Source of the DNA: Bacteroidetes bacterium QS_3_64_15
Lineage (GTDB): Bacteria > Bacteroidota > Rhodothermia > Rhodothermales > Salinibacteraceae
DNA: 40,702 nucleotides
NCBI GenBank assembly: GCA_003022565.1
Contig: PXTN01000103.1
Location: 1-40,702, forward strand
Reading direction: 5' to 3'
The notes below the pieces were generated by a model. It had not been told where the DNA came from and did no database searches. It saw only the letters and a program-made list of their open reading frames with translations. Positions 4,270 to 32,194 of the stretch are shown here, in pieces; within the stretch, counting starts at the first letter, position 1; each line of letters starts with the position of its first letter. The position numbers and the translations under genes were made by a program.

Positions 4270-4348
4270 AACGCGGAACGCACAACGCCCAACGCTTACC
4301 GCCCACACGCCCAAACGCCCGTACGCAAAACCCAAACGCCCACACGCA
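4270..4348 (+). repeat. Heptamer repeat array abutting the ABC permease start codon
   Basis: From 4270 the sequence reads as consecutive degenerate 7-mers (AACGCGG, AACGCAC, AACGCCC, AACGCTT, ACCGCCC). Further 7- to 8-nt units with ACGCCC or ACGCA follow up to 4348, directly against the ATG at 4349. There are about eleven units with core ACGCNNN. It is non-coding and probably lies in the 5' leader of the permease gene. It shares its core with arrays elsewhere in this window. Confidence 0.8.
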
Positions 4349-5197
4349 ATGCGCCCGTTGCTCGGCCTCGTTCTCATCACGTTTCGGGAGCTCTGGGCCC
4401 GCAAAATTGTGCTGGGGCTCTTCATCATCAGCTCGCTGGTCCTGCTGGCCGTGACCTTCGCGCTCAACCTTGACGTGGTGGAGGGGTCGCTCGCCGGCAT
4501 TCGGCTCTTCGGACAGGAGGCCACGCCCGAGGACCTGGCCGAGGGGGACACGCCCCCCCTCACGCTCAACCGCGTGGTGATCGCTGTCGAGTCCGTCGTG
4601 GCCGGGGCGGCGTACTGGATCGGGATCCTGCTGGCCCTCTTTGCCTCCGCCTCCCTCTTCCCCGACCTGCAGTCAGCCGGACGGGTCGAACTGCTCCTCT
4701 CCAAACCGGTCAGCCGCACGAAGGCCTTGTTCGGGCACGTGCTGGGGGTGTGGAGCGCCATCGCCGTGCTCACGCTCTACCTCATGGGCGGTGTCTGGAT
4801 CATCATGTCGCTGAAGACGGGCGTCTGGAATCCGCGTTTCCTGCTTTCTCTGCTCATCGTGGTGGGCATGTTCGCGGTGATGTACGCTGCCGTCATGCTG
4901 ATGGGCGTGTGGACCGAAAGCACCGCCTTAGGGCTCATCGTCTCATACGGTCTTATTTTCGTGTCGATGGTCCTCGCAGCGGCCAATCAGATCAGCCCCA
5001 CGCTCGGTCCCGTGGGCCGACCCGTGTTCTGGGGACTCTACCACATGCTCCCCAACTTCACGGAGGTCACCCAAATTGTGTCGACCCTCGCCGAGGGCAA
5101 CGCGGTCTCGTCGTGGTATCCCTTCTTCTCCTCCCTCCTGTTCGGGGGCGCGGCCTACGCCGTTACCGGCTACTGGTTTGCCCGGCGGGACTTTTAG
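4349..5197 (+). CDS. ABC-2 type transporter permease
   Basis: Inner-membrane permease of 282 aa with about six hydrophobic segments (roughly residues 23-40, 78-98, 130-150, 160-182, 188-206 and 255-275). It has the first-loop helix RELWARK before TM1 that is common in ABC-2 permeases (ABC2_membrane_2/GldF-like). It lies downstream of the ABC ATPase in the same direction and is its likely partner. The start at ATG 4349 is fixed by family-like MRPLLGLVLITFRELWA and by the repeat array that ends just before it. There are no transport-specific residues, so the substrate is unknown. Confidence 0.88.
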   Translation: MRPLLGLVLITFRELWARKIVLGLFIISSLVLLAVTFALNLDVVEGSLAGIRLFGQEATPEDLAEGDTPPLTLNRVVIAVESVVAGAAYWIGILLALFASASLFPDLQSAGRVELLLSKPVSRTKALFGHVLGVWSAIAVLTLYLMGGVWIIMSLKTGVWNPRFLLSLLIVVGMFAVMYAAVMLMGVWTESTALGLIVSYGLIFVSMVLAAANQISPTLGPVGRPVFWGLYHMLPNFTEVTQIVSTLAEGNAVSSWYPFFSSLLFGGAAYAVTGYWFARRDF

Positions 5198-5258
5198 GGG
5201 TCCATGCCCCAATTCGCCTTCATCATCAGGGCGCACGCGGAGGGGCTCTCTTCGTATG

Positions 5259-5392
5259 TATTCCGTACTGCGTAGTGCGTATTGCATAAGAACATCTTGC
5301 GCAAGAACATCTCCAAGATACCCCGACAGCACCGACAGCCATCGGGAAGGCTGCAATACGAGATACGCAATACGAGATAGCGTAATACGCAA
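5259..5392. repeat. Inverted heptamer array A (hairpin-forming)
   Basis: The left arm 5259-5286 is four 7-mers (GTATTCC, GTACTGC, GTAGTGC, GTATTGC). The right arm, about 5352-5392, carries complementary units (GCAATAC, GAGATAC, GCAATAC, GTAATAC). The arms could pair across a central segment of about 65 nt. It lies between the ABC permease stop and the DDAH-like gene and contains no ORF. Confidence 0.75.
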
Positions 5393-5449
5393 CCAGGCTC
5401 ATTCCGCCCCCTTTAACCGCCCCCTCCGACCCCTTCCCCACTGCTCCAC

Positions 5450-6343
5450 ATGGTCTACCAAACGCTCGACGCCCTCGACGTTCAGTTGAAGGATCTGCCG
5501 GTCCTCCCTCCCCCAAACCGGGTCGTTCTCACTACTCCCACCCACTTCGACGTCGAATACGTGATCAATCCCCACATGTCGGAGAACGTGGGGGCCGTGC
5601 GCAAAGAGGTGGCCTGGCAGCAGTGGAAGGCCGTCCGCGCCGCGTACACTGCCCTCGACCGGAAACCGGTCGTGGTCAACGGCCAGCCCGGCCTCCCGGA
5701 CATGGTGTTCTGTGCAAACCAGACCCTTCCCTTCTACAATCCCGGTGCCGACACGAAGGGCGTCGTCCTCAGCCGCATGCACAGCGAGCATCGGGAGGGC
5801 GAGGTGCCCTACTACGACCGATTTTTCGAGGACATGGGGTACGCCGTGAAGACACTCCGCGAGGACCTGGACGCGGATTTTGAAGGGATGGGCGACGCCC
5901 TCTGGCACCCGACACGCCGTCTGTTGTGGGGCGGGTACGGCTACCGGACGAGCCCGGAGGCGTACGAGGCACTGAGCGACCTGCTGGACGTGCCGGTCGT
6001 GCTGCTCCGCCTCACCGATCCCGACTACTACCACCTCGACACCTGCCTGTGCCCGCTCGACGCGGAGCACGCCCTCGTGGCCCCCGACGCATTCGACGAC
6101 ACCGGCCGGGCCCTCATCGAGTCGTTCTTCGACACGCTCATCGAGGTGCCGGACCATGAAGCGCGTCACCAGCTCGCCTGCAACGGCCACTGCCCCGACG
6201 GCACACACGTGTTGATTCAGGAAGGCTGCGAGCAAACGAACGAGCGACTGCGAGAGCACAACTTCGTCCCCGTTGAACTGGACACGAGCGAGTTTTTGAA
6301 GGCGGGGGGCTCGGTCTTCTGCATGAAACAGATGATCTGGTGA
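5450..6343 (+). CDS. DDAH/arginine deiminase-fold hydrolase (amidinotransferase family)
   Basis: A 297-aa member of the pentein superfamily, which hydrolyses or transfers guanidino groups (dimethylarginine, arginine or related substrates). Visible motifs are the substrate-loop PDMVFCANQ, the acidic FEGMGD, the catalytic His in YYHLDTCLCPL and the catalytic Cys291 in GGSVFCMKQ at the extreme C-terminus, so the active site looks complete. The closest functional class is probably N,N-dimethylarginine dimethylaminohydrolase, giving citrulline and dimethylamine. Arginine deiminase or amidinotransferase activity cannot be excluded from sequence. It stands alone between two heptamer arrays. The start ATG 5450 follows a pyrimidine-rich leader. 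Confidence 0.82.
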   Translation: MVYQTLDALDVQLKDLPVLPPPNRVVLTTPTHFDVEYVINPHMSENVGAVRKEVAWQQWKAVRAAYTALDRKPVVVNGQPGLPDMVFCANQTLPFYNPGADTKGVVLSRMHSEHREGEVPYYDRFFEDMGYAVKTLREDLDADFEGMGDALWHPTRRLLWGGYGYRTSPEAYEALSDLLDVPVVLLRLTDPDYYHLDTCLCPLDAEHALVAPDAFDDTGRALIESFFDTLIEVPDHEARHQLACNGHCPDGTHVLIQEGCEQTNERLREHNFVPVELDTSEFLKAGGSVFCMKQMIW

Positions 6344-6399
6344 ATGCACGAACCAGAACGACCAGTGCAGCGGGGCGGAAAATTGTGAGGGCTCCTCCG

Positions 6400-6466
6400 C
6401 GTAGTGGGTATTCCGTATTGCGTATTTCGTATCGCGTGTTTTCCTTACGCATTACGCAGTACGCAC
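6400..6466. repeat. Inverted heptamer array B (hairpin-forming)
   Basis: Four exact-period 7-mers (GTATTCC, GTATTGC, GTATTTC, GTATCGC) run on the left. On the right, after a short centre, come three units TTACGCA, TTACGCA and GTACGCA. The arms align as an imperfect stem of about 23 bp. It lies between the DDAH-like gene and the glycosyltransferase gene. Confidence 0.8.
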
Positions 6467-6524
6467 TCCTCCTGTCTCGAAGCATTCGGCGGACCAAACT
6501 GTCTCGATTCCCGCCTGGAGTGAA

Positions 6525-7238
6525 GTGACACATCCACAGCTCATCTCGGTCATCATTCCGACTCTGAACGAGGAAAGCACACTCGGCGCCACGCTGCGTC
6601 GCCTCCAGCGGCAGGAGGAACCGTTTGAACTCATCGTCGTGGACGGGCGCTCGGAGGACGAGACGCGGGCGGTCGCCTGCTCCCAGGGGGCCACCGTACT
6701 TCAGGCCCCGCGGGGCCGCGCCTCACAGATGAACCGAGGGGCCGAAGCAGCCACCGGCCGTGTCTTTCTGTTTCTGCACGCCGATACCCTCCTTCCCCCG
6801 GACGGCCTGTCGACCATCCGGAGCGCGCTCAACGATCCCGACACGTCCAGCGGCACCTTCCGGCTTCAGTTTGACGACCCAACCCCCCTGCTCCACTTCT
6901 ACGCCCAGTGCACCCGCTGGCCGTGGATCCGGCTCTGCTTTGGCGACCGGGGGCAGTTCGCGGAGCGGTCGGCATTCGAGGCTGTAGGCGGGTTTCCGGA
7001 ATGGCCCCTCTTTGAAGACCTCGAGCTCGCGTCGCGCCTCCGCGAGCACGGGGGCTTCCGCTTCCTCGACACCGCCGTGACCACCTCGGCCCGGCGGTTT
7101 CGCCGGTGCGGCACCCTTCGCCAGCAGCTTCGCAACCTGTACCTGTGGAGCCACTACATGTGGGGCACCGATCCGGAGCGGGTCGCGCACCGTTACCACG
7201 GCCCCGCCCCGGACGCGGAAACGCAGCCCCAGTCCTGA
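6525..7238 (+). CDS. Family 2 glycosyltransferase (TIGR04283-like)
   Basis: A 237-aa GT-A type glycosyltransferase. The N-terminus ISVIIPTLNEESTLG is the nucleotide-sugar-binding start of GT2. IVVDGRSEDET and LFLHADTLLP supply the DXD-like metal site, and FEDLELASRL is the usual catalytic-base region. The motif RGRASQMNRGA is typical of the TIGR04283 subgroup, which is often found near selenium- or arsenic-related radical SAM genes, though none is here. The start is GTG 6525 with GGAG four bases upstream, a tight spacing. The product is probably cytoplasmic or membrane-associated; the acceptor is unknown. Confidence 0.87.
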   Translation: MTHPQLISVIIPTLNEESTLGATLRRLQRQEEPFELIVVDGRSEDETRAVACSQGATVLQAPRGRASQMNRGAEAATGRVFLFLHADTLLPPDGLSTIRSALNDPDTSSGTFRLQFDDPTPLLHFYAQCTRWPWIRLCFGDRGQFAERSAFEAVGGFPEWPLFEDLELASRLREHGGFRFLDTAVTTSARRFRRCGTLRQQLRNLYLWSHYMWGTDPERVAHRYHGPAPDAETQPQS

Positions 7239-7301
7239 ACCGCCGACGGGGCCGAAAAGTGATAACTTCGTAACGGCCCTTGCGGTTCTACGATCTTCGT
7301 A

Positions 7302-7319
7302 ATACTAAATGAGTAGTAT
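7302..7319. promoter_or_regulatory. Putative BlaI-type operator palindrome
   Basis: ATACTA-aatgag-TAGTAT is a perfect 6-bp inverted repeat immediately before the repressor gene. BlaI/MecI repressors bind dyads built around TACT/AGTA half-sites next to their own genes, so this is a credible autoregulatory operator. It overlaps the first possible ATG (7309), which argues for the later start at 7342. Confidence 0.55.
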
Positions 7320-7341
7320 CAAATCAGAAAGACACCCTGCT

Positions 7342-7758: not shown

Positions 7759-9154
7759 CATTCTGGCTGACCTCGGGACCGCAACGGTCGAATCTCTCTG
7801 GCTTCCCGTCCTGGCGTGGACGATCCTCGCTATGACGGCATACGGCGTGCTCCAACGCTGCCGACTCGGCGTGCACCTCCAATACCGCGTTCGGCAAGGG
7901 CTCCTCATTGCGCTGCCGATCGGCCTCCTCCTCGGTGTCACCACCTCTTGGGTCTCGAACCTTGGTCTCTTCTCCCCCGGCATCCAGGCCCCGCTTGACC
8001 TTTCTGGACCTGGCGCTGCCCGTTCTCCTTTTCCCGAGGCAACCTCATCGTCTGCGCTCCCGTCGTGGTCGTGGCTGCACGCTGTGGGGCTTCTCACCGT
8101 TGCCGCTTGTGGGATCGGAGCTTATCGGTTGACTCAATTCCTGGCCGATGCCCTCGCACTGGTTCGCGTTCGGAACCAGAGCGACTTTCGCACCCGACCT
8201 TCCGTCCAACACCTTACGGACCGGCTTGCCGATGACATGGACATCCAGCGATCCGTACGCACGCGGATTGCTCCGGGCGACATCGTGCCGCAAACGGTGG
8301 GCTTCTTTCGTCCAACGATCATCCTGCCGGAGACCCTGACCGAGGACCGCGCTGCACTGCGGATGACCCTCACGCACGAGCTCGTCCACGTCCGGCGCTA
8401 CGATTGTGTGGCCCAGTGGGTCGAGCACCTCGTCGCCTCGGCGCTTGCTGTCCATCCCGGCGTCGGGATTCTGTGCCGATCCATTGCCCACTTCCGTGAG
8501 CAGTCATGCGACGCCGCGGTTCTGGGCACGGAAGCGGTGGGGCGCTCGCAATACGCCACCCTGCTGTATCGATTCTCGACCCCTCTGAATTCGCGCAACA
8601 GCGTCGCACTCCGAATCGGGGACGCTGACTCCTCTCTCCAAAATCGGATTCGAGCCATGCACGAACACCCGTCCTCAGCAGATTCCACGTCGCTCCTCAC
8701 CGGTTTCACCCTCAGCGTTCTGATCGTAGGCCTGACCGTCGGTGTTGCTGCCTGCTCGGATTTCGGGGGCAAAGCACCCCCTTCTACAGCGGAGCCCAAG
8801 GCTCAGTCCGCCAATCGCTCCGAGGCCCTTCTCTCAGGACGCGTGGTCGACCGTCAAACCGGAGATCCGATTCCGCGCGTCAACATCATTCGGGCCTATG
8901 GGGCAGACGAGCAATCGTCCCGGGACGGATTCGGAGAAGGTATTGGTTCGACGAACGGGAACGGTGAATTCACGGCCTCCAATTTGTCCCCTGGCTCGCA
9001 CCAATTGATCATCTCCTGCGTCGGCTACGAGCGCAAAACCAGGGAAATCACCCTCAGGGCCGGACATCCCCGGACGGTGACGATTAAGATTCAACGTGAG
9101 ACGATGTCGCTACAGGGGGTCGAAGTAGACGCACCTCGGACACGAAATGAGTGA
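7751..9154 (+). CDS. M56 family (BlaR1-like) membrane metalloprotease with CarboxypepD_reg-like C-terminus
   Basis: A 467-aa inner-membrane sensor protease. Four hydrophobic segments lie near residues 7-30, 50-68, 105-128 and 316-334. The zinc site HELVH (209-213) and the downstream Glu of REQSCDAAVL match peptidase family M56. After the last membrane segment the periplasmic part reads as a CarboxypepD_reg/DUF4480-like beta domain (SGRVVDRQTGDPIPRVNI to VTIKIQ) in place of a penicillin-binding sensor. The fourth segment ends in VGVAACSD, which resembles a lipobox. The start at 7751 is chosen because MLDIL and the preceding bases (ACCGCGATGCTTGACAT) recur in the next gene. An earlier in-frame ATG at 7712 would overlap blaI further. 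It probably cleaves the BlaI-type repressor upon a cell-envelope signal. Confidence 0.88.
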   Translation: MLDILADLGTATVESLWLPVLAWTILAMTAYGVLQRCRLGVHLQYRVRQGLLIALPIGLLLGVTTSWVSNLGLFSPGIQAPLDLSGPGAARSPFPEATSSSALPSWSWLHAVGLLTVAACGIGAYRLTQFLADALALVRVRNQSDFRTRPSVQHLTDRLADDMDIQRSVRTRIAPGDIVPQTVGFFRPTIILPETLTEDRAALRMTLTHELVHVRRYDCVAQWVEHLVASALAVHPGVGILCRSIAHFREQSCDAAVLGTEAVGRSQYATLLYRFSTPLNSRNSVALRIGDADSSLQNRIRAMHEHPSSADSTSLLTGFTLSVLIVGLTVGVAACSDFGGKAPPSTAEPKAQSANRSEALLSGRVVDRQTGDPIPRVNIIRAYGADEQSSRDGFGEGIGSTNGNGEFTASNLSPGSHQLIISCVGYERKTREITLRAGHPRTVTIKIQRETMSLQGVEVDAPRTRNE

Positions 9155-9209
9155 GAAGGACGATCGAGAATCCCTCAACAACTGGACGCCAAACATGTGG
9201 TGAACCGCG

Positions 9210-10928: not shown

Positions 10929-10939
10929 GCGACCTCCGC

Positions 10940-11464: not shown

Positions 11465-11573
11465 AGGGTGCGAAAGGTCGCCGAGGGAAATTTACGAGAT
11501 GGCGCGCAGAGACATACACTCATCGTTCGTCGTCGATCGGAACGCACCGGGGAATGTGAGTGAAAAGCAACGC

Positions 11574-11627
11574 CATATTTCGTATTGCGTACTTTCGATC
11601 CAACATACGCAATGCGAAACGCAAAAT
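11574..11627. repeat. Inverted heptamer array C (hairpin-forming)
   Basis: The left arm ATTTCGTATTGCGTACT faces a right arm ATACGCAATGCGAAACGC across about 11 nt. TTTCGTATTGCGTA and the complement of the right arm agree at 13 of 14 positions. It lies in the 224-nt gap between the HNH gene end and the DUF3592-like gene start, which otherwise shows no gene. Confidence 0.7.
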
Positions 11628-19036: not shown

Positions 19037-19077
19037 CCACGCACACACGCCCATACGCCCAACCGCCCACTCGGGTT
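19037..19077. repeat. Octamer/heptamer repeat array between obg and rnhA
   Basis: The units CACGCCCA, TACGCCCA and ACCGCCCA run with an 8-nt period beside CACGCACA. They share the ACGCCC core with the array before the ABC permease. It lies in the 257-nt divergent promoter region of obg and rnhA. Confidence 0.6.
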
Positions 19078-19165: not shown

Positions 19166-19612
19166 ATGACCGACGTGACCATTTACACTGACGGCGCCTG
19201 CAGCGGCAACCCCGGTCCAGGCGGCTGGGCGGCCATCATCATCCCCGACGACAATCCTGATGCCTACGAGGAACTGACGGGCGGCGAGCCGCACACCACG
19301 AACAACCGCATGGAGCTCAGGGCCGCGCTGGAGGCGCTCCGGGCACTGGAGGCGCCCACCCAGGTGGCCCTCCACACCGACAGCGAGTATCTCTCCAAGG
19401 CGTTCAACGAAGGATGGCTCGAGAGCTGGCAGGACAACGATTGGCAGACCTCCTCGAACAGCGACGTGAAGAACCAGAGCCTCTGGAAGGCGCTGCTCGA
19501 CGAGGCGAAGCGTCACGACGTGGACTGGGTGTGGGTGAAGGGGCACGCCGACGACGAGCTCAACATTATGGCCGACGAGCTCGCCGTCACCGCGATGGAG
19601 CAGTTCAAGTGA
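19166..19612 (+). CDS. rnhA: Ribonuclease HI
   Basis: A 148-aa cytoplasmic nuclease that degrades RNA in RNA-DNA hybrids. The active site is complete: Asp9 in YTDGACSGNPGPGG, Glu50 in NNRMELRAA, Asp72 in LHTDSEYL and Asp137 in IMADELA, with the catalytic His127 in VKGHADDE. ATG 19166 gives MTDVTIYTDG. Earlier in-frame starts run through repeat sequence and are not conserved. It is transcribed divergently from obg. Confidence 0.95.
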   Translation: MTDVTIYTDGACSGNPGPGGWAAIIIPDDNPDAYEELTGGEPHTTNNRMELRAALEALRALEAPTQVALHTDSEYLSKAFNEGWLESWQDNDWQTSSNSDVKNQSLWKALLDEAKRHDVDWVWVKGHADDELNIMADELAVTAMEQFK

Positions 19613-19752
19613 GGTGGGGGCGCGGGAGTGGAGAGCGTGGGGGCGTGGGAGTGCAGAGCATGGGGGAAAGGGGAAACGCCGGTTCCCAACACTCACCGCA
19701 AAACACCGAACCCTTAACGCTCAATCCCCAACCCTCAACTCCCAACACGTAA
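19613..19752. repeat. Compound repeat: 23-bp direct repeat plus perfect heptamer array
   Basis: The first half has two imperfect copies of a 23-mer (gcgYgggagtgSagagcRtgg and two G). From 19688 to 19750 nine consecutive 7-mers follow in perfect register: AACACTC, ACCGCAA, AACACCG, AACCCTT, AACGCTC, AATCCCC, AACCCTC, AACTCCC, AACACGT. The array starts right after the rnhA stop and overlaps the last codons of the YigZ relic on the other strand. Confidence 0.8.
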
Positions 19753-20282: not shown

Positions 20283-21698
20283 ATGACGCGGTTGACTGCG
20301 CTTCTTTTTACGGTTGCCCTTTTGCTCACTGGATGCGGGTCATCGGGGGAGGAGGACGGTCCCCAGCGGCGACGGGGCGGCTCCGACAACTCGACCCCAT
20401 CGGTGGAGGCGGTGCAGGCCCGCGACGGCACGCTTCCTCTGGAGGAGCGGATGAGCGGCACGGTACGGGCGCGCAACCAGGTGGCCATCTACCCGGAGCT
20501 GAGCGAGCCGGTCGTCGCCGTGGAGGCCCAGACGGGCGACTACGTAGAGGCGGGGGATGCGCTCGTCCGTCTTCGGCGCGAAACCCACGAGCAACAGGTT
20601 CGGCAGGCCAAGGCCTCCGTCCGCACCGCCAAGGCCGAGGCCAATGGGGCGAAGGCTCGCCTCCGTGAGCTCGAAGCGCAACTGAAACGGACCGAACGCC
20701 TCGCTGAGCAGGACTTCGAGAGCGAGCAGCAGCTCGAATCGCTCCGGGCGCAGGTGGAGCAGGCCAAGGCGAGCTACGAACAGGCGCAGGCGCAAGTAGA
20801 GCAGGCCGAAGCGACCCTTGAAGAACGTGAGACAGCGCTCCAGCAGACCGTCGTACGCGCCCCCATCAGTGGCTATGTGGGGCAGCGCAACGTGGAGGTG
20901 GGGCAGCGCGTCGATCCCAGCACCCGCCTGTACGTGATGGGCGATCTCGATGCGGTGAAGGTGCGCGTGGAGGTGACCGACCGGATGTTCGGGCGCATTC
21001 AGCCTGGGCAGACGGCTCGCATTCACGTGCCGCAGAAAGACACGGTGCTCACGGCCTCAGTCACCCGCATGTCCCCCTTCCTCAGCGACGAGTCGTACAG
21101 CGCCGAGGCCGAGATTGAGGTGCCCAACGAGGACCGCATCCTCAATCCCGGCATGTTTGTGGAGGTGGACGTGGCCTACGGCGAGAGCCAGCGGGCGACG
21201 ATCGTCCCGCTCAGCGCCCTCTACGAAGACCCGGCCACCGACACGCGGGGCGTGTTTGTCGCCCCCACGCTGGGGACAGAGATTCCGGTCGACGTGCCCG
21301 ACTCGTTCGACGAGGACGATCCCCCTCCGCTCACCCCTCCGACCCCGACGACGTTCCGCGAGGTGGAGATCTTGGCGGAGGGCCGGCAGACCGCCGGCGT
21401 CCGGGGCATCGAGCCGGGCGACTGGGTCGTCACCGTGGGCCAGAACCTGCTGGCCAACGACACCGGCGAGCGGGTCGACGCTCGCGTGCGCCCCCTCCCC
21501 TGGTCCCGCCTCCTGAGCCTGCAGCGCCTACAGGACACCGACCTTCTGAACCGTGTGCTTGAACGGCAGCAGCGCCTCGCGAAGCAGCGCTTCGGGGACG
21601 ACTCCGCGCCGGACGATACGTCCCAGTCCTCTACGACTCAGGAGGAGACCTCCCCGGACAGCACTGCGCCTTCGACGGCCGTGAACCAGCGTCCGTAG
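20283..21698 (+). CDS. RND efflux periplasmic adaptor (HlyD/MFP family) lipoprotein
   Basis: A 471-aa membrane-fusion protein of an RND tripartite pump. The signal peptide ends in the lipobox LLTGC (Cys18), so it is lipid-anchored. A split barrel-sandwich/lipoyl domain (VVAVEAQTGDYVEAGDAL and APISGYVGQRNVEVGQRV) flanks a long coiled-coil hairpin at about residues 95-195 rich in Glu/Gln/Ala. A beta-barrel follows, and the C-terminus is a Ser/Thr/Asp-rich tail. The RND pump gene begins 42 nt after the stop, so the two form an operon. No outer-membrane TolC-type gene is nearby. The substrate is unknown. Confidence 0.92.
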   Translation: MTRLTALLFTVALLLTGCGSSGEEDGPQRRRGGSDNSTPSVEAVQARDGTLPLEERMSGTVRARNQVAIYPELSEPVVAVEAQTGDYVEAGDALVRLRRETHEQQVRQAKASVRTAKAEANGAKARLRELEAQLKRTERLAEQDFESEQQLESLRAQVEQAKASYEQAQAQVEQAEATLEERETALQQTVVRAPISGYVGQRNVEVGQRVDPSTRLYVMGDLDAVKVRVEVTDRMFGRIQPGQTARIHVPQKDTVLTASVTRMSPFLSDESYSAEAEIEVPNEDRILNPGMFVEVDVAYGESQRATIVPLSALYEDPATDTRGVFVAPTLGTEIPVDVPDSFDEDDPPPLTPPTPTTFREVEILAEGRQTAGVRGIEPGDWVVTVGQNLLANDTGERVDARVRPLPWSRLLSLQRLQDTDLLNRVLERQQRLAKQRFGDDSAPDDTSQSSTTQEETSPDSTAPSTAVNQRP

Positions 21699-21740
21699 CC
21701 CCTCGCTCGTCGTTTCCCCATTGCTCGACCGCCCCTGCCC

Positions 21741-24700
21741 ATGTCGCTCTACGACCTTTCCATCCGACGCCCAGTCGCGACGGCAATGACGTTTCTGGCC
21801 GTCATCGTGATCGGCAGCGCCAGCTTTTACTACCTGCCGGTGGACCTGCTGCCGGAGATTGAGTATCCGCGCGTGACGGTCTACACCAACTACCCGAACG
21901 TGGGGCCGGAGGAGGTGGAAAGCATCATCACCGACCCGGTGGCGAACGCGGTCTCCAGCGTGCCCAACGTGGAGCGGATCACCTCCAGCTCCGAGGAAGG
22001 ATCGAGCCGGGTCAACCTCGAATTCGCGCAGGGCACCGACCTCAACGCAGCGGCCAATGACGTGCGCGCCGCCCTCGACCGCATCCGCGACAACCTGCCG
22101 GTCGAGGCCGAGCCGCCCGGCATCTGGAAGTTCGACCCCAACAGTCAGGAGATCGTCACCATCGCGGTGGAGTCGAGCCGCGACATGGAGTCGCTCACGC
22201 GGCTGCTGGAGCGAAACCTGGGGAAGCAATTTGAGCAAATTCCCGGTGTGGGGACCCTCAACATCCAGGGCGGCATCTACCGGCAGATCCGCGTCAACAT
22301 TAATCGGGACCGGCTGAAGACCTACGACCTGTCGGCCGCGCAGGTGCAGCAGGCCATCGCCCAGTCGAACGTGGCACTGCCGGGGGGCAACGTGAAGGAG
22401 GGGCTGAACGACCTGTACGTCCGCACGCAGGGGGAGTACGAGTCGCTCGATGAAATTCGCCGCACCGTCGTGACGACGGCGGAGCAGACCTCGATCCGCG
22501 TGCAGGACGTGGCCGAGGTCGTAAACGGCTACGAGGACCTCAGCCGCATTGCGGAGCTGAACGGAATCCCAGTCGTCCGCCTCGAAATTCAGAAGCAGAG
22601 CGGGGCCAATACGGTCACCGTTGCGGACAATATCCGCACCAAGGTCGAGCGCATCAACGAGACGCGCTCGGACGTGAAGCTCACGGTCGTGAGCGACCAG
22701 AGCGAGTTCATCCGGAAGTCGATCAACAATGTCCAGAACGCGGCCATCTGGGGCTCGCTCCTGGCCATCCTGGTGCTGTACCTCTTTCTCCGCAACGGGT
22801 CGACGACTTTCATCATCGCGCTGTCGATCCCCATCTCGATCATCGCGACGTTTGCCCTCCTCTTCTTCAACGACCTGACGCTGAACCAGATGACGTTCGG
22901 CGGGCTGGCGCTGGGGGTGGGCCTCATTGTCGACAATGCGATCGTGGTCTTAGAGAACATTATCCGACAACGGGAGGAGAACGGACGATCGCTCAAGGAG
23001 GCCGCCTCGATCGGCACGCGCGAGGTGGCAGGCGCCATCGTCGCCTCTACGCTTACCACGTCGGTCATCTTCCTCCCCCTCGTCTTCGCCCGCACCACGA
23101 CGGCGACCCTCTTCCAATCGCTGGCGCTAGTCGTGGTCTTTGCGCTGGTGTGCTCGCTGCTGGTGGCCCTCACGCTGGTGCCCATGATGGCGAGCCGCTT
23201 CCTGACGATCGACGCCGGGGAGCAGACGAGTGACCGGGACGCATCGAAGTCGTGGTTCCAGCGCGCCTTTGCCCGGCTGGAGAACCGCTACTCGCGACTC
23301 ATCGAAACGCTGCTCGGCCGCCGCTGGTGGGTCTTCGGCGCGACGGTGGTCCTGCTCGCCGGAGCCATCGCAATGTGGCCGTTGATATCGGTCGAACTGG
23401 CCCCTCAGACCGATGCCAGCGAAATTGACATCAACCTGGAGATGGCCCAGGGGACCAACATCGCCGTCGTCATGGAGTATCTCGACGAGCTGGAGCAGAA
23501 CGTGAAGCCCCTCCTTCCCGAGGAGGACATGGAAAACTTCGCCAAGCAGGTGCAGCCCTGGGGGGCGGAGGTCGAGATTCGCCTGAAGTCGGCCAGTGAG
23601 CGCTCCCTCAACACCTTTGCGCTGGCCGACCGCATCCGATCCGAAGTTCTTGGGTCTGTCCCGGGGGCTGACATCCGGGTGAGCGCCCAATCGGGGCTTT
23701 GGATCCTACGGCGTGTCTTCAGCACCGGTGGGGGCAACCAGGCCCTGCAGGTGGAGCTTCGCGGGTACGACCTGGAGCGGGCCCGCTCGATTGCCGAGCA
23801 GATCCGGGCCCGCCTTGAACGGGTCGAGGGCGTGGCCACGGCCCGCACCGGGCGGCGGGAAGGGCGGCCGGAGCAGAACATTCGGTTCCTCCGGGACAAG
23901 ATTTCCTCGTTGGGGCTGTCGACCCAGGAGGTGGCCGCGGCCGTCCAGACGAACGTGGGGGGGAGTCGCGCGGCCTCCTACCGCTCGGGCGGCGAGCAAT
24001 TTCCGATCACTGTCCGCCTGCGCCCCGAGGATCGGCTGTCGGTGGAGGACCTGGACAACGTGTCGGTCCAGACCCCCAACGGCGAATCGGTCCCCCTCTC
24101 CACCCTCGTCGACACCGATCGCGGCCGGGGCCCCACCGAGATCCAGCGCATCAACGGCCAGCGGGTGACCTACATTTCGGCCACCCTCAGTAGCGACGCG
24201 GTGCTCGGCGAAGTGGTGGACCGCGCTCGCAGCGAACTGGCCGACCTCAATCTGCCCGAAGGCTTCTCCGTCACGTTCGGCGGGGAGTATCGAGAGCAGC
24301 AGAAGGCGCAGACCGACTTCCTGATCGCCATCCTCATGGCGCTGGTGCTCATTTACATGGTCATGGCGGGCCAGTTTGAGCGCTTCCTCGACCCGCTCGT
24401 GGTCATGTTCAGCGTGCCGCTTGTGCTCATTGGCGTCCTCCCCACGCTCGTGCTTACCGGCACCACCGTCAATATCCAGAGCGTGATGGGGCTGGTGATG
24501 CTGATCGGGATTGTGGTGAACAACGCCATTGTGCTTGTCGACTACATCAACCTCATGCGGCGCGAGCACGGGATGGATCTCTTGCCGGCGGTGGCGAAGG
24601 CCGGTCGCCTGCGCCTGCGTCCAATTCTCATGACGACCCTCACCACCGTGCTCGGGCTCGTCCCCCTCGCTCTAGGCATCGGGGCCGGGGCGGAGATTCA

Positions 24701-24875
24701 GGCGGCCCTCGCCCGCGTCGTCATCGGCGGACTCCTGGCCTCGACGCTCGTCACGCTCGTGCTGATCCCGGCCGCCTACGTGAGCCTCGAACTCGCGGCC
24801 CGCTCCGTGCAGGCGACGCTGCCGGACTGGTCGTGGCTCCCCGACTCCACCCCCCTGCAGCCCCGACGGACCTGA
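21741..24875 (+). CDS. RND family efflux transporter permease (AcrB/HAE-like)
   Basis: A 1044-aa proton-driven inner-membrane pump with the standard two-fold repeat. TM1 follows [14 protein letters not shown], and a large periplasmic loop lies at about 35-330. TM2-6 follow with the proton-relay region [14 protein letters not shown], whose second Asp is Asn as in many HAE2-type pumps. A second loop is at about 550-850, and the second TM set has the matching [14 protein letters not shown]. The N-terminal motif [12 protein letters not shown] and GGLALGVG are family hallmarks. Its adaptor is directly upstream. It probably exports toxic or amphipathic compounds. Confidence 0.95.
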
Positions 24876-26324: not shown

Positions 26325-26363
26325 CAGACGGAAAACGGGAACGGATGGATGTTTTTTCTCCAC

Positions 26364-26422
26364 TGTCCCTCCTTCCACACCTTCCAACCTTTTGACCTTC
26401 CCACCTTCAACCTTCCCACACA
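26364..26422 (+). repeat. Pyrimidine-rich heptamer-like array abutting the cryptochrome start
   Basis: Units such as CCTTCCA, ACCTTTTGA, CCTTCCC, ACCTTCA and ACCTTCC recur with a period near 7, up to the GTG at 26423. The layout is the same as in the array before the ABC permease, but the core is CCTTCCN. It probably lies in the 5' leader. Confidence 0.6.
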
Positions 26423-27874
26423 GTGCCGTCAACCGCCCTCGCCTGGATTCGCAACGACCTCCGCGTGCGCGACCACGCCCCGCTTCGCTACGCAGCCGAC
26501 CGCTTCGACCAGGTGGTGCCCGTCTACTGCTTCGACCCGCGCCATGTCGGCACCACCATGTTCGACCTGCCGAAGATGAGCGCCATCCGGGCCCGCTTCC
26601 TGTGTGAGAGTGTGGAGGACCTGCGCGCGTCTCTTCGCGACTTGGGAAGCGACCTCGTGGTGCGCCGGGGCCGCCCCGAAGCCGTGCTGCCCAAGCTGGT
26701 GCGCACGGCTGAGGCCGAGGAGGTGGTGATGTTCCAGGAGATCGGGACGGAGGAGCGCCAAGTCGAGGACGCCGTGAAGGACGCACTGAAAGGGACCGAC
26801 GCCACGCCCGGCTTCTTCTGGGGCAAGACGCTCTACCACATCGACGACATCCCGTTCGAGGGGCCGGACGACATTCCGGACGTATACACAAACTTTCGGA
26901 AGGGCGTGGAGAAAAAGAGTCAGGTCCGCCCTACCATCGACAAGCCAACCTCTCTCCCGCCGCTGCCCGAGGACCTCGAGCCCGGGACGGTCCCCACGCT
27001 CAATGATCTCGGCTTCGACGACGACGGCACCGTCGACGAGCGCGCCGTGCTGCCTTTTGAAGGCGGCGAGACCCGCGGCCTCGACCGGATCGACGAGTAC
27101 ATCTGGCGCGAGGACTGCCTCAAGAAGTACAAGGCCACACGCAACGGTCTCCTCGGCGCCAACTTTTCGTCGAAGTTCAGCCCCTGGCTCGCCCACGGCT
27201 GCATCACGCCGCGCCAGATCCATGAGGAGGTGGAGCGCTACGAGGATCAGCGGTTCGACAACAAGTCGACCTACTGGATGAAGTTCGAGCTCATCTGGCG
27301 CGACTTCTTCACCTACGTCGCCTGGAAGGCCGGCGCCCGCCTTTTCGCCCCCGGCGGCCTCATCGGCAACGACATCGACTGGACGTACCACGACGAGTCG
27401 TTCGAGCGCTGGGCCACCGGCACCACCGGCATCCCGTTCGTGGACGCCAACATGCGCGAGCTGAACCGGACCGGCTACATGTCGAACCGGGGCCGCCAAA
27501 ACGTGGCCAGCATGCTCTCGCAGAGCCTAAAGCTCGACTGGCGGATGGGCGCGGCCTACTTCGAGTCGCGGCTGGTGGACCACGACGTGGCCTCCAACTG
27601 GGGCAACTGGGCGTACAACTCGCGCGTGGGCAACGACCCGCGGGCCCGCTATTTCAACATCGTAAAGCAGGCCAAGCGCTACGACGGGGACGGCGAGTAC
27701 GTGCGCTACTGGCTGCCGGAGCTGGAGGGGGTGCCCACCGAGTTCGTCCACGAGCCGCACCGGATGAGCCCCGAGCAGCAGAAGCTCTACGACTGCGTCC
27801 TCGGCGCGGACTACCCGAAGCCCATCGTGAACCTCGACAAGACCTACGAGCGCATTCGAAACGAACGCGACTAG
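26423..27874 (+). CDS. DASH-type cryptochrome / single-stranded DNA photolyase
   Basis: A 483-aa flavoprotein of the photolyase/cryptochrome family. The N-terminal alpha/beta antenna domain (ALAWIRNDLRVRDH, VPVYCFDPRH, TMFDLPKMSAIRARFL) precedes the helical FAD domain (TRNGLLGANFSSKFSPWLA, FKFELIWRDFF-like WMKFELIWRDFF). The C-terminal signature YNSRVGNDPRARYFN, then QAKRYDGDGEYVRYWLPEL, is characteristic of the DASH subgroup, which repairs cyclobutane dimers in single-stranded DNA with blue light. The start is GTG 26423. It forms a pair with the DUF2256 gene. The enzyme fits a sunlit hypersaline habitat. Confidence 0.94.
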   Translation: MPSTALAWIRNDLRVRDHAPLRYAADRFDQVVPVYCFDPRHVGTTMFDLPKMSAIRARFLCESVEDLRASLRDLGSDLVVRRGRPEAVLPKLVRTAEAEEVVMFQEIGTEERQVEDAVKDALKGTDATPGFFWGKTLYHIDDIPFEGPDDIPDVYTNFRKGVEKKSQVRPTIDKPTSLPPLPEDLEPGTVPTLNDLGFDDDGTVDERAVLPFEGGETRGLDRIDEYIWREDCLKKYKATRNGLLGANFSSKFSPWLAHGCITPRQIHEEVERYEDQRFDNKSTYWMKFELIWRDFFTYVAWKAGARLFAPGGLIGNDIDWTYHDESFERWATGTTGIPFVDANMRELNRTGYMSNRGRQNVASMLSQSLKLDWRMGAAYFESRLVDHDVASNWGNWAYNSRVGNDPRARYFNIVKQAKRYDGDGEYVRYWLPELEGVPTEFVHEPHRMSPEQQKLYDCVLGADYPKPIVNLDKTYERIRNERD

Positions 27875-27916
27875 GTAGCACTTCGCGGGGGATCCGCCGG
27901 AGGCGGAAGCAGCCCA

Positions 27917-27944
27917 CCCGTCTCACGCATCCCGTCTCACGCAT
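27917..27944. repeat. Perfect 14-bp tandem repeat
   Basis: CCCGTCTCACGCAT occurs twice without a gap (27917-27930 and 27931-27944) in the 150-nt space between the cryptochrome gene and the sulfotransferase-like gene. The length is two heptamers, and the ACGC core recurs as in the other arrays. Confidence 0.7.
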
Positions 27945-28024
27945 CAGACCGGGTCGGTTGTCATCGACCGAATCGGGGATTATCTTTCCGCTGAATCAGG
28001 TGCCCCAGACGAACCGGACCCTCC

Positions 28025-28768: not shown

Positions 28769-28808
28769 TACGCCTCTCTTCCCTCACCCTTTGCCCCTCC
28801 CCCGTCCC

Positions 28809-29726
28809 ATGAAGCAAGACTTCGACGACCGAAACCGCGACCTCATCGTCAACGTCGACGGGGAGCTTACCCACCGGGACGAGGCCGGGGTGAGTCCGTT
28901 CGACAGCGTCGTGCAGGGGGGCGACGGCGTGTGGGAAGGGCTACGGCTCTACGACGGGCGCATCTTTCACCTCCTCCCCCACCTCGACCGCCTGCGGGAT
29001 TCCGCGAAGGCGCTGGCGTTCGACACGATTCCGTCGCACGAAACGATCATCCACGAGCTGCGGCGCACCCTGGACGCCAACGACATGCGCGACGGGGCCC
29101 ACATCCGCCTCACCCTCACGCGCGGCGAGAAAATCACGTCCGGCATGGACCCACGGCTCAACCAGTCCGGCCCTACCCTCATCGTGCTGCCGGAGTACAA
29201 AACGCCGGTCTACGACAAGAGCGGGCTCGCCTTCGTCACCAGCTCCATCCGCCGCTTTCCACCGGACGGGCTCGACCCTAAGATCCACCACAACAACCTG
29301 TTGCAGTCGGTCCTCGCCAAGATCGAGGCCAACCACGCCGAGGCCGACGCCGCCCTCATGCTGGATCCGGACGGCTTCATTGCCGAGGGGCACGGCACAC
29401 ATGTCTTCATCGTGGAGGGCGAGACGGTCGTCACCGGCACCACGAAGGCGTGCCCGGAGGGCATCACGCGGCAGACGGTGCTCGACCTCTGCGCCGCAAA
29501 CGACATCGACCATGTGGTGCGCGACCTCTCGGTGATGGAAGCCTACCGCGCCGACGAGATGTTTTGTACCGGCACGATGGGGGAGCTGGCAGGCATTACG
29601 ACGCTGGACGGGCGCATTATTGGGGACGGAACGGTCGGACCCATGACGCAGCGCTTGTCGGCGCTCTACCGCGAGGAGACCGCGACCAGCGGGTACGCGC
29701 TATGGAAAGAAGAGCCGAGGACGTGA
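28809..29726 (+). CDS. Class IV aminotransferase (branched-chain/D-amino acid type)
   Basis: A 305-aa PLP enzyme of fold type IV. Catalytic Lys158 sits in LDPKIHHNNLLQSVLAK, FIAEGHGTHVFIV holds the cofactor Glu region, and CPEGITRQTVLDL and FCTGTMGELAGI are the phosphate-binding motifs. The sequence is like IlvE/BCAT, but the changed HHNN after the Lys (often SLNY) suggests a different or narrower substrate. The start is ATG 28809; a TTG at 28791 would add six residues. It is in tandem with the sulfotransferase-like gene and likely co-transcribed. Confidence 0.9.
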   Translation: MKQDFDDRNRDLIVNVDGELTHRDEAGVSPFDSVVQGGDGVWEGLRLYDGRIFHLLPHLDRLRDSAKALAFDTIPSHETIIHELRRTLDANDMRDGAHIRLTLTRGEKITSGMDPRLNQSGPTLIVLPEYKTPVYDKSGLAFVTSSIRRFPPDGLDPKIHHNNLLQSVLAKIEANHAEADAALMLDPDGFIAEGHGTHVFIVEGETVVTGTTKACPEGITRQTVLDLCAANDIDHVVRDLSVMEAYRADEMFCTGTMGELAGITTLDGRIIGDGTVGPMTQRLSALYREETATSGYALWKEEPRT

Positions 29727-29841
29727 CGGTTGGCGGAGGCGCGACGAGTCGTCCCCGATTCCTGCCTCCCGTCCGCTCAGAGACAGATTGCGGCCGGACG
29801 AGTTCGGTCGAGAGCGTGACGCTGGATAGCGGACGGGCGTG

Positions 29842-30468
29842 TCATGCGGCCACGCGTCCCCCCGCCACGAAGAAGTCGTCCTGTCGCCACGCGCAGTCCA
29901 CGTCCACAAAGCCGGCTCGCTCCATGGCCTTGAGCTGGGGGTAGAGCGGGAGCGTGCCCACGTGGTCGCCAATGAGGCAGTGCCCGCCAGGGCGGAGCGG
30001 CTCGTGGACGCTGCGGAAGAGCAGCTCGTAGCGCGACTCGGCCTCCGCCGCATCCACGTCGTGCCCCACGATGGCGTGGAGGGCTAGCGAAGCCACGACG
30101 AGGTCGTACGGCCCGCCGGGAAGCGGCGCCCCATCGGTGGGCACCGCGACCTGGAGTGGATCCGCATTGCGCGTCAGTTGCCCCACCTTTTCGTGCGCGA
30201 TGGCGAGTAGATCCGAATCCTCGTCGAGCAGCACGAGCTCCACCTGCGGGTACGCGTCTAGCACCGTGGCGGCGGCATTGCCGGTGCCGCACGCAAGGTC
30301 GCAGACGGCAGCACCGGGCGGAAGGGGCGGCAGCGCCATCGCTAGCTCCTCCAGCATGGGTACCGCGTGCGGCATTTTGCGCTCCAGATGAATGTCGTAC
30401 CAGCGGCCGTCGTCCCAGTGGCCACCGTCACGGTCGAGATTTCCTTTCCAACTCGGCAGTTCGCTCAT
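29842..30468 (-). CDS. Class I SAM-dependent methyltransferase
   Basis: A 208-aa cytoplasmic methyltransferase with no signal peptide. Motif I AVCDLACGTGNAAATVL, motif II ELVLLDEDSDLL, post-motif DLVVASLALHAIVGHDVD and LRPGGHCLIGDHVG are all typical of the Methyltransf_25 group. The N-terminus WKGNLDRDGGHWDDGRWYD is family-specific sequence that I do not recognise. The substrate is unknown. It is convergent with the aminotransferase gene and lies 40 nt past the lexA stop in the same direction. Confidence 0.85.
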   Translation of the reverse strand: MSELPSWKGNLDRDGGHWDDGRWYDIHLERKMPHAVPMLEELAMALPPLPPGAAVCDLACGTGNAAATVLDAYPQVELVLLDEDSDLLAIAHEKVGQLTRNADPLQVAVPTDGAPLPGGPYDLVVASLALHAIVGHDVDAAEAESRYELLFRSVHEPLRPGGHCLIGDHVGTLPLYPQLKAMERAGFVDVDCAWRQDDFFVAGGRVAA

Positions 30469-30507
30469 AGAGATGTGGTCAAAACGAGGGCTTCAGAGAA
30501 GGCAGTG

Positions 30508-31158
30508 TTAACGCGCCATCGGGCTCCCACTGCGTTCTTTTTTGTGGATTCCATTCTCGTTGACGTGACCGACGTACCGACCCAGAATGGTGACCTCCTC
30601 GAACACGTCGGGCTGAATGTGGATGTCGTCGTACTCCGGGTTGCACGGCTCCAGGCGGAGCCCCTTCTCGTCGTGGTACACCCGCTTCAGCGAGGTCTCG
30701 CCGTCGTAGAGCACGGCCCCAATTCCTCCTTCGGGAATGTCTTCATCGACGAGCAGCACGTGGTCCCCGTCGTGGATGTCGGCCCCTCGCATGGACTGCC
30801 CCGACACGCGGATGGCAAAGATCTCATCGAGGTTTGAGAAAAGCATGTCGAGGGTGATGGTCCCAAGATCGGCCTCGACGGCCTCCTGCAGAGTGCCGGC
30901 CGAGATGATGCCCTTCACGGGAATCCCCGGAGCTTCCTGCTCCTGATAGCGCGGGGCCAGGTGATACCCCTGATCGTCCCGCGTGAGGTGGCCCTTGCGG
31001 TGCAGCGCCTTCAGATTCTGCGTGACGCTGTTGGGCGAGCTGTACCCGAAGTGATCAATAATTTCCCGATAGGTGGGCCAGACGCCCGTCTCGTGCGTGT
31101 GATCGATGAGAAACTGGAGGAACTCGTGCTGCTTGGCGGTAAGCTTTTTCCGACCCAT
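30508..31158 (-). CDS. lexA: LexA repressor
   Basis: A 216-aa SOS regulator. The N-terminal winged HTH is LTAKQHEFLQFLIDHT to SPNSVTQNLKALHRKGHL. The autocleavage site Ala87-Gly88 is in GIISAGTLQEA. The catalytic dyad is Ser122 (SGQSMRGADI) and Lys158 (ETSLKRV). ATG 31158 gives the family-like MGRKKLTAKQHEFL; the longer frame from 31260 is not conserved. recO lies 112 nt upstream on the same strand. I could not recognise a clear LexA box in the upstream region, so the binding motif in this phylum stays open. Confidence 0.94.
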   Translation of the reverse strand: MGRKKLTAKQHEFLQFLIDHTHETGVWPTYREIIDHFGYSSPNSVTQNLKALHRKGHLTRDDQGYHLAPRYQEQEAPGIPVKGIISAGTLQEAVEADLGTITLDMLFSNLDEIFAIRVSGQSMRGADIHDGDHVLLVDEDIPEGGIGAVLYDGETSLKRVYHDEKGLRLEPCNPEYDDIHIQPDVFEEVTILGRYVGHVNENGIHKKERSGSPMAR

Positions 31159-31269
31159 GACGGAGGGAGGCAGTGGGCATAGTTGGCGAACGGCGGCACC
31201 TCGATGGACGCCAGCGGAGGTTTGGCCACATGTTCCACACAGTAAGGGTATTGAGGACACCGGAGAAGG

Positions 31270-32058
31270 TCAAGCCTCCGTCGCGTCGCTGGCCTGCTCA
31301 ATCTGCGCGATTACCGAGCGGCTGCGGTCCGGGTAGGCGTCGTCGAACTGGTACCGGAGGAAATCGCGCACGAGGGCCTCCACCTCGCGGCGAACGGCGG
31401 GCGTCATCTCCAGGCGCATCACCGTGTCGAGGTCCGCCCGTGCGCACACGGCATAGGCCCGCAGGGCGGCCCGCGAGGCCCGGCGGGGCTCTGCTGGCGC
31501 CGCGTCCCGAATGCCGTCGGGATACACACCGCCGTCTGCGAGCGAGAGCAGTCCTTCATCTCCCTGCACCGCCTCCACCCGGTCCCGCTCCACGGCCGGG
31601 GCCACGCCCAGCATCCGGGCCAGCCGCAACTGGGCGTACGGCCACAGGTTGGTCACCCGGGTCTCGGTGGCGTCCAGCCGGCGAAGCGTGCGCACGAGCA
31701 ATGCGAACACGTCGGGCTGAGCATTTTCCTCCTCCATCAGAGCATCGACGAGCTCCACGATGCGCAGCCCTACGGTGATGGACTTCAGGTCGCGGCGGAG
31801 GGAGTGGAACGACTCGACGTGACTGCTCTCGCTCAGGGTCTGCAAGGTGCGGGTGGGCTTGTAGTAAAACACCACCTGCGTGTACGCCATGGGCTGCAGG
31901 GTGGCCCCGAACGAACTCTTCGGCCGGCGCGCCCCCTTGGCCATCACGCCGAGCTTGCCCTTCTCCCGCGTGAAGAGGGTGACGATCTGGCTCGTCTCGC
32001 CGTAGTCGAGGCTCCGCAGGACCACCGCCTCGGTCCGAATGATGGAGCGTTGTGTCAT
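31270..32058 (-). CDS. recO: DNA repair protein RecO
   Basis: A 262-aa recombination mediator that loads RecA at gaps with RecR. The N-terminal OB fold (IIRTEAVVLRSLDYGETSQIV, FTREKGKLGVMAKGARRPKS) is followed by an all-helical domain. The usual CxxC zinc site in the C-terminal part is not visible, as in some other RecO proteins. ATG 32058 gives MTQRSIIRTEAVVLR; TTG at 32073 is a weaker choice. It lies upstream of lexA on the same strand, which places two DNA-damage genes together. Confidence 0.9.
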   Translation of the reverse strand: MTQRSIIRTEAVVLRSLDYGETSQIVTLFTREKGKLGVMAKGARRPKSSFGATLQPMAYTQVVFYYKPTRTLQTLSESSHVESFHSLRRDLKSITVGLRIVELVDALMEEENAQPDVFALLVRTLRRLDATETRVTNLWPYAQLRLARMLGVAPAVERDRVEAVQGDEGLLSLADGGVYPDGIRDAAPAEPRRASRAALRAYAVCARADLDTVMRLEMTPAVRREVEALVRDFLRYQFDDAYPDRSRSVIAQIEQASDATEA

Positions 32059-32135
32059 GGGGGGCCTGATCAACCGGTGCGTTTCAGAAGAAAGACACCG
32101 CAGGCTGGATGGGGGTCCTGACGGTCCAGGTAGAA

Positions 32136-32194
32136 GCGTATTGCGTATGATTTAAGACAACCTTTACGCAATACGCACCACGCAATACGCACCA
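32136..32194. repeat. Inverted heptamer array D (12-bp perfect stem)
   Basis: GCGTATTGCGTA (32136-32147) and TACGCAATACGC (32165-32176) form a perfect 12-bp inverted repeat around a 17-nt loop. The right arm continues as period-7 units TTACGCA, ATACGCA, CCACGCA, ATACGCA to 32191. It lies in the divergent region between recO and the ComEA-like gene. Confidence 0.85.

Follow-up and report, generated by a model that had tools for sequence, protein, structure and literature searches.

Two-armed intergenic arrays of degenerate heptads in a Salinibacteraceae genome and its relatives

Intergenic DNA of Bacteroidetes bacterium QS_3_64_15 (Salinibacteraceae), a salt-loving relative of Salinibacter, carries arrays of degenerate 7-bp units, which we call heptads. 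We analyzed these arrays in a 40,702-nt stretch of DNA (the window; GenBank assembly GCA_003022565.1, contig PXTN01000103.1, forward strand), in the genome to which the window belongs as contig C103 (G000; 2.62 Mb, 84% complete), and in related genomes. Many of the arrays are two-armed, a G/T-rich heptad arm being followed by a unique spacer and then by an A/C-rich arm. Three features constrain any explanation of the arrays: the order of the arms is invariant in our sample of the genus, the two arms share a vocabulary of words without extra pairing between them, and relatives can hold different word families at one slot 3' of a gene. The arrays offer a starting point for explaining why seven-base repeats are so abundant in bacteria.

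Abundance, arm order and word sharing in the genus

Genes were called with a purpose-written codon-usage script that gives approximate start positions, and 216 intergenic regions of the window's own genome (62 kb) were compared with 20 dinucleotide shuffles. The excess of period 7 over shuffled intergenic DNA, on which a preliminary description of the window had made its reading depend, was clear: the regions held 29 period-7 clusters and each shuffle 0. Period 8 gave 8 clusters, and periods 5, 6 and 9–11 gave 1–3. Intergenic and coding clusters numbered 32 and 1 at a threshold of 0.5, and 38 and 7 at a threshold of 0.4; mean matching at lags 7 and 14 rose slightly in intergenic DNA and not in coding DNA. 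The F1 pattern GCGTATTNCGTATT (the families are defined below) had 18 matches in the genome and 0 in backward controls. It was present in 24 of 100 genomes, the window's own counted, the backward control giving one match in each of 2, and in 12 of the 13 genomes of the genus; the G004 genome, of the same genus and 99% complete, had no match to it. One of the 29 clusters appears at every period and is probably a poly-A run. This run (L044:2203-2284) consists of some 45 A in a row in intergenic DNA of a GC-rich genome, and is either real or an assembly artefact.

Arms were collected from a genus sample of 2.47 Mb from five genomes (G000, G003, G010, G011 and G012). Because certain stretches of G000, G003 and G010, and all of the sequence used from G083, a genome from a different family within the order, were picked for F1 matches, array densities in these sets are not unbiased. 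Right-arm words were sorted into seven families, with labels coined here: F1 (AATACGM), F2 (NTCACGM), F3 (CAACNCY), F4 (CTCATGA), F5 (ATTCCGM), F6 (ATTCGMC) and F7 (GGTCCGC). Labelled arms numbered 205 in the sample and 25 after a single dinucleotide shuffle of it. By family, the counts found and shuffled were 83 and 0 for F1, 90 and 13 for F2, 18 and 9 for F3, 5 and 0 for F4, 2 and 1 for F5, 4 and 0 for F6, and 3 and 2 for F7, so that F3, F5 and F7, whose shuffle counts come near those found, are weak as single arms. The dinucleotide shuffle was used for these counts because a reversed-sequence control proved unclean (34 matches for F2 and 19 for F3).

The order of the arms was fixed throughout the genus sample. 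Neighbouring arms no more than 150 nt apart formed 55 left-right pairs and 0 right-left pairs, together with 5 left-left and 8 right-right neighbours, all 13 of which joined differing families. When order was judged by composition alone, 25 neighbouring clusters ran from G/T-rich to A/C-rich and 0 were reversed. Both arms belonged to one word family in 49 of the 55 left-right pairs, the expectation under random pairing being a fraction of 0.36; 47 of these 49 remained after orthologous duplicates were dropped. The two arms share a vocabulary at near-equal frequencies: AATACGC and AATACGA made up 61 and 37 of the 168 right-arm heptads, and 48 and 30 of the 140 left-arm heptads.

We also compared each arm's pairing with its own partner to its pairing with partners swapped between elements. 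The longest exact stem was shorter for own arms than for swapped arms, both in F1 (10.3 against 11.9, n = 18, P 0.0013) and in F2 (8.1 against 9.2, n = 24, P 0.0074). Shared 7-mers behaved in the same way, at 0.34 for own against 0.42 for swapped arms in F1 (P 0.0014) and 0.13 against 0.20 in F2 (P 0.016). Among related swap tests, using a fixed window or the full chain, 8 of 12 gave P(perm<=own) below 0.05 and the four others gave 0.055–0.58; in none of the 12 swap tests was there a significant pairing excess of own arms. The F3 test comprised 3 elements, too few for a verdict. Since own arms pair less well than swapped ones, there is no sign of reverse copying or of selection for perfect pairing. 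The deficit could reflect a loss of long perfect palindromes.

Spacers at different loci resembled one another no more than shuffled ones did (mean score 4.54 against 4.46; 32 spacers of at least 12 nt, from genomes other than G001 and G011). In length, 16 of 20 F1 spacers measured 16–28 nt, and F2 spacers ranged from 4 to 64 nt. A G-quadruplex motif occurred in 2 of the 205 arms, with 7-nt flanks included and either strand considered. In gap g12_1_140932_141243, an inverted GGTCCGC/GCGGACC pair adjoins an F1 array at L205 (G012) and L209-L210 (G001); this is a further family, present in both of the Salinivenus-like genomes (G012 and G001).

Position after genes and turnover between relatives

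The arrays lie close behind genes. Median separation was 11 nt from an adjacent stop codon (n = 58) and 47 nt from a start codon (n = 42). Only 1 of the 50 left-right elements with both neighbours called lay between divergent genes, and among gaps of 80–500 nt arrays occupied 114 of 910 tandem or convergent gaps, against 4 of 205 divergent ones (Fisher p 5e-7). A hairpin with a T-tail was called in 25 of the 114 array gaps and in 237 of the 796 others (p 0.097), and in 35 of the 205 divergent gaps, these on one strand. As for the idea that the arrays might load Rho (YC every 7 nt), the F1 consensus, on a reading of its sequence alone, contains no YC dimer.

Turnover was examined in 374 orthologous gaps of G003 and G011, whose flanks are 95.9% identical. 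Among gaps with arrays, 14 of 27 had fallen below 60% identity; without arrays, 21 of 255 had done so where the gap measured 80 nt or more (p 1e-7) and 7 of 92 where it was shorter. Restriction to non-divergent gaps of 80–400 nt gave 13 of 26 with arrays against 16 of 182 without. By an automatic label, the 27 array slots comprised 12 with the same family in both genomes, 4 with overlapping families, 3 with switched families and 8 with an array on one side only. This label erred in places: the switch at 313578 is a shared array mislabelled, the overlap at 8519 is F1 in both genomes, and at the one-side-only slots 37163 and 473369 the other allele holds, by eye, an array below threshold. Reading by eye gave 4 clear slots with differing word families and 2 partial ones (17989 and 290984). 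At G003 gaps 37163, 444 and 284763 both arms differ in family, again by eye and with some arms below threshold; flank identity at 284763 is 88%. At gap 548886 an F2 pair of G011 adjoins an F1 right arm common to both genomes. The chance expectation for slots of differing family is 0.28, and the probability of at least 4 is 6e-5, figures whose inputs (10 and 9), like the tally of 4 clear and 2 partial slots, are by-eye counts made after seeing the data.

Copy number also varies, a 14-mer at one slot being present in 2 copies in one relative and 7 in the other. This observation, and the deletion and arm-copy cases given below, come from an earlier, smaller G003/G011 sample that was 94.8% identical over 190 kb. 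Donors for three alleles were sought by DNA search in G003 and G011, and none was near-identical among the matches listed; scoring covered, in G011 for instance, 40 of 46 and 40 of 59 candidates. With the query itself and its orthologous flanks set aside, matches covering both arms were about 70–83% identical, and thus no recent donor was seen. In a second pair, G001 and G012 (97.6% flank identity), one of 39 gaps carried an array, 94% identical between the two, so turnover is not shown for that pair. The flanks of a DDAH-like gene (Pfam) in 12 other genomes of the genus held no clear arrays like those of the window, with degenerate traces in G006 by eye. Matches to this gene that carry a name include Salinibacter altiplanensis and Salinivenus, which suggests the Salinibacter lineage for the window.

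Sites in the window and arrays outside the genus

The preliminary description had listed six main sites in the window and two weaker relatives as period-7 arrays. The main sites were tested by lag matching against 1000 dinucleotide shuffles each, with p taken after the maximum over lags 4–12. All six showed period 7 (p 0.001–0.007), lag 7 ranking first or second among lags 4–20; the two weaker relatives did not hold. The arrays and the repeats near them are as follows.

4269..4348: single A/C-rich arm, F3 (AACGCNC), a mixture of 7- and 8-bp units; abuts the ATG at 4349 of an ABC-2 permease-like gene
5259..5286: left G/T-rich arm, F1 (GCGTATT), 3' of the stop at 5197
5352..5392: right A/C-rich arm, F1 (AATACGM), 65 nt beyond the left arm
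6399..6440: left arm, F1, 6 heptads; follows the stop at 6343
6445..6467: right arm, F1 (TTACGCA units)
11577..11626: short F1 pair, left TTTCGTATTGCGTACTTTCGA and right TCCAACATACGCAATGCGAAA, flanked by two minus-strand genes
19614..19666: G-rich 23-bp repeat block, 2.3 copies, directly after the RNase H stop at 19612
19687..19749: right arm, F3, nine heptads in register
32136..32147: left arm, F1, in a divergent setting (recO on the minus strand, helix-hairpin-helix protein on the plus strand)
32165..32194: right arm, F1, ACGCAATACGCACC twice
27917..27945: duplicated 14-mer, F2-like (TCACGCA/TCCCGTC), weak, possibly due to chance
19039..19069: ACGCCCAA repeat, period 8, no heptad array
26366..26419: C-rich repeat, period 8/15, stopping short of the photolyase start at 26423

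Inverted pairs make up four of the six main sites (5259, 6400, 11574 and 32136), and the pair at 32136, between divergent genes, is an exception to the usual context. The supposed single array at 5259-5392 resolves into two separate arms. The reading of the arrays was in this respect incomplete, because the two-armed inverted structure at no fewer than four of the main sites, and the fixed order, had been overlooked. The nine units in perfect register described at 19688-19750 were recovered as a chain of 9 heptads one position upstream. What had been missed there is the G-rich block behind the preceding stop codon, which is a candidate left partner of the chain. Of the weaker relatives, 19037-19077 has period 8 instead (0.67 at lag 8, 0.29 at lag 7), and 27917-27944 is a perfect 14-mer duplicated, with a lag-7 p of 0.12 after the maximum. 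On the whole the preliminary observation of a family of degenerate intergenic heptad arrays, with units that vary under a constant period, largely holds, and its interpretation is partly supported.

RNA folding was better than in shuffles for the pairs at 5250, 6395 and 32130 (z -3.5, -3.1 and -4.1), and no better for 11565, 4255 and 19611 (z -1.0, +1.0 and -1.1). A search of the whole window against Rfam at the gathering threshold returned no family apart from two tRNAs. Period-8 clusters in the intergenic sample also exceed chance (8 against 0 in 20 shuffles), with 19039-19069 and 26366-26419 as the cases in the window; the C-rich repeat at 26366 resembles the heptad arrays in look and not in period.

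Outside the genus, Balneolaceae and related loci (739 kb) contained 28 intergenic and 2 coding period-7 clusters with different words, of which one is an unmasked run of N and some lie in loci that are near-copies with the same array; period 8 gave 8 intergenic and 0 coding clusters there. One period-7 cluster was seen in the 140 kb of Salinibacteraceae-type loci (L049-L055), and one, a run of N, in 179 kb from further Rhodothermales loci; six loci from other groups (96 kb) had 0 intergenic and 2 coding clusters. These uneven counts indicate that the arrays are patchy, and the clusters with other words in Balneolaceae and related loci, together with the F2 word in viral contigs (below), indicate that the Salinibacter lineage is not special in having them.

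We state the rule of arm order for the genus only. In 46 kb of G083 picked for F1 there were 4 left-right and 0 right-left pairs, with spacers of 17–24 nt. In a collection of viral contigs the F2 word was found in 32 stretches and an exact F1 21-mer in none. Loci of this collection held 6 left-right and 2 right-left labelled pairs, and by G/C skew 3 in the usual order and 2 reversed. At L261:11447-11503 an A/C-rich F1 arm precedes a G/T-rich F2 arm. In another contig of the collection, L260 (7.4 kb), several heptad pairs have arms about 10 nt apart and mix CGTAATT with CGTGATT words. Plasmids searched with a 78-nt composite built from F1 words yielded no match, but the BLAST low-complexity filter was on, and this negative therefore says little; the window genes at 20283-24875 gave partial matches only in the plasmid search.

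Origin of the arrays and their known counterparts

We lean, with less than even confidence, towards a reading in which a 3' slot is prone to breaks and heptads are added to each of its sides independently, out of one shared vocabulary. The slot, lying after a stop codon, would be where breaks or stalls tend to happen, and DNA synthesis advancing by 7 nt at a time, often by 14 nt, would build the arrays there. Two 3' ends would be extended separately from the same word source and then joined, after which slippage may adjust the copy number. Their persistence mainly behind stop codons might mean that they are least harmful in that position, or that this is where breaks happen, and the inverted layout would be a trace of the element's making and not a hairpin under selection for folding. 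Such local synthesis would account for the order of the arms, the shared vocabulary, the absence of extra pairing and the unrelated spacers, as well as for the lack of visible donors and for families that differ in both arms at one slot. An improbable further reading invokes a telomere-like activity in bacteria, in which an enzyme with its own degenerate template would add heptads to both 3' ends of breaks at gene ends before these 3' ends are fused. If that were true, the sequence [G-strand heptads]-junction-[C-strand heptads] would be the layout of a head-to-head telomere fusion, the word families would correspond to templates, and slots of differing family would be repair scars made from a different template.

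Several observations weigh against local synthesis. We identified neither an enzyme nor a template, and no break was seen. Where elements are conserved, the arms change little faster than the rest, differing at 10.7% of aligned sites against 8.5% of the other aligned sites. We also counted indels of at least 4 nt whose length is a multiple of 7: they made up 11 of 53 where a gap had an array and was at least 60% identical, and 28 of 209 where it had none; with so few multiples of 7, slippage in heptad steps is a weak signal. No clean insertion breakpoints were seen in the gain/loss and switched gaps that were read, most or all of the gap differing in each. At g3_650k_85985, G011 keeps the F1 left arm without spacer and right arm, as after a plain deletion, and at g3_650k_89951 a stretch that differs between the arms of G003 is common to both arms of G011, where one arm looks, by eye, to have been copied onto the other. 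Outside the genus, one of the two right-left pairs bridges neighbouring elements and that at L261 is a true exception to the order, and in other Rhodothermota order by composition gave 1 reversed and 0 normal cases.

It is also possible, if on the unlikely side, that the arrays are functional 3'-end elements, either bidirectional terminators or mRNA 3'-end stems. Any heptad word would then serve, so that the slot is kept while its sequence turns over. The placement agrees with this, in that arrays lie nearer to stops than to starts (11 against 47 nt) and are commoner in tandem or convergent gaps (114 of 910) than in divergent ones (4 of 205); so do the three window pairs that outfold their shuffles (5250, 6395 and 32130), exact stems averaging 8–10 bp, and the retention of an array at some slots despite a differing word. 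However, pairing between the arms shows a deficit and not an excess, the canonical hairpin with T-tail is not clearly replaced (25/114 against 237/796, p 0.097), an array is present in one relative only at 8 of 27 slots by label, and the folding of the site at 11565 (z -1.0) does not surpass that of its shuffles. Local synthesis and a 3'-end function can be compatible, the one as origin and the other as later use. A model of selection for the hairpin itself was rejected, as arm swaps gave no excess of pairing and rather a deficit.

It is unlikely that the arrays serve as binding sites, spaced by 7 nt, of sequence-specific proteins that recognize DNA or RNA, one protein for each family. Such sites would fit the vocabulary common to both arms, for which pairing would not be required, and the spacer lengths, since 16 of 20 F1 spacers measure 16–28 nt and the 4 pairs in the genome of another family 17–24 nt. 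A family difference in both arms between genomes about 95% identical, as seen by eye, would however need coordinated replacement, there are many word families, F2 spacers run from 4 to 64 nt, and no protein was identified. Ordinary heptanucleotide microsatellites, arising by polymerase slippage independently at each site, are more doubtful still. Perfect 14-mer arrays do vary in copy number between relatives, and heptamers are the leading tandem DNA repeat in intergenic regions of many prokaryotes according to the part of PMC6344855 drawn on here; independent slippage leaves unexplained, however, that the same words recur at dozens of loci, that 49 of 55 pairs are of one family and that their order is fixed. 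Whole-element transposition was rejected, no near-identical full copy of three alleles appearing among the matches listed for G003 and G011. Repetitive extragenic palindromic (REP) elements and bacterial interspersed mosaic elements (BIME) are inverted, intergenic and situated near gene 3' ends, and the arrays recall them in these respects. Mobile palindromes of this kind, spread by a Y1 transposase of the REP-associated tyrosine (RAYT) type, are nonetheless very improbable here, because PF01797 occurs in 6 of 13 genomes of the genus and was not found in the array-bearing G000 (84% complete), G001, G010 and G011, so that the transposase is not obligatory, and because spacers are unrelated and the three alleles had no near-identical full-length donor among the matches listed, no shared spacer or full-length copy such as REP/BIME would have being found.

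Tandem repeats of seven bases are known from several bacteria. The short tandemly repeated repetitive (STRR) sequences of cyanobacteria are heptameric. Clustered regularly interspaced short palindromic repeats (CRISPR) have repeats of some 20–50 nt, unique spacers and cas genes; the arrays described here have units of 7 nt, and no search aimed at CRISPR was made. The comparisons that follow draw on parts of the papers cited. Tandem heptamers lead the intergenic tandem DNA repeats in a survey of 7006 prokaryotic genomes, which gives no clear clue to function (PMC6344855); it treats the same phenomenon, and the part used here does not analyse how arms are ordered, whether they share words or how arrays turn over. 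Heptanucleotide elements are described in Geobacter (PMC2700814) and heptanucleotides of Calothrix are mentioned in PMC4692102; PMC8780764, in the part used, concerns regulator binding sites and was judged irrelevant to heptad arrays. Listings of open-licence PubMed Central papers showed none on word switching or on independence of the arms.

TAACTGA direct repeats occur in Beggiatoaceae, Cyanobacteria and Bacteroidetes (MacGregor 2015, PMC4679880). They resemble our arrays in being intergenic heptamers, in that relatives have slots without repeats, and in having other heptamers nearby. Their indels between two strains are mostly in 7-nt steps. The TAACTGA system differs in consisting of a single word in direct orientation, mostly just upstream of starts in the main genome described, with one indirect repeat; no rule of inverted pairs was found in the portion of that paper used here.

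Among the papers drawn on here, the closest parallel comes from Xanthomonas and Nostoc. Their GGGAATC / GGGGA(C/T)T heptameric repeats (Rehm et al. 2015, PMC4692102), for which function is given as unknown, have much the same anatomy as far as the part used here describes it: period-7 intergenic units, with convergent inverted pairs near stops and few between divergent genes. Repeat length and sequence differ among related species there, while 83% of the Xcc repeats are retained in Xac and the loci are termed stable; here the family is retained at 12 of 27 slots by label, between species whose distance is not matched to that pair. The Xanthomonas and Nostoc repeats are built of a single G-rich, quadruplex-forming word, whereas the Salinibacter arrays use several words, AATACGM and NTCACGM being the main ones of the right arm, and can differ in word family at one slot between relatives. 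GGGNATC / GGGGAYT is not the unit of these arrays, and with a quadruplex motif in 2 of 205 arms these data show that such arrays exist without the G-quadruplex words on which the Xanthomonas and Nostoc work has focused. The Salinibacter arrays are a non-quadruplex, multi-word and fast-changing variant of the known intergenic heptameric repeats.

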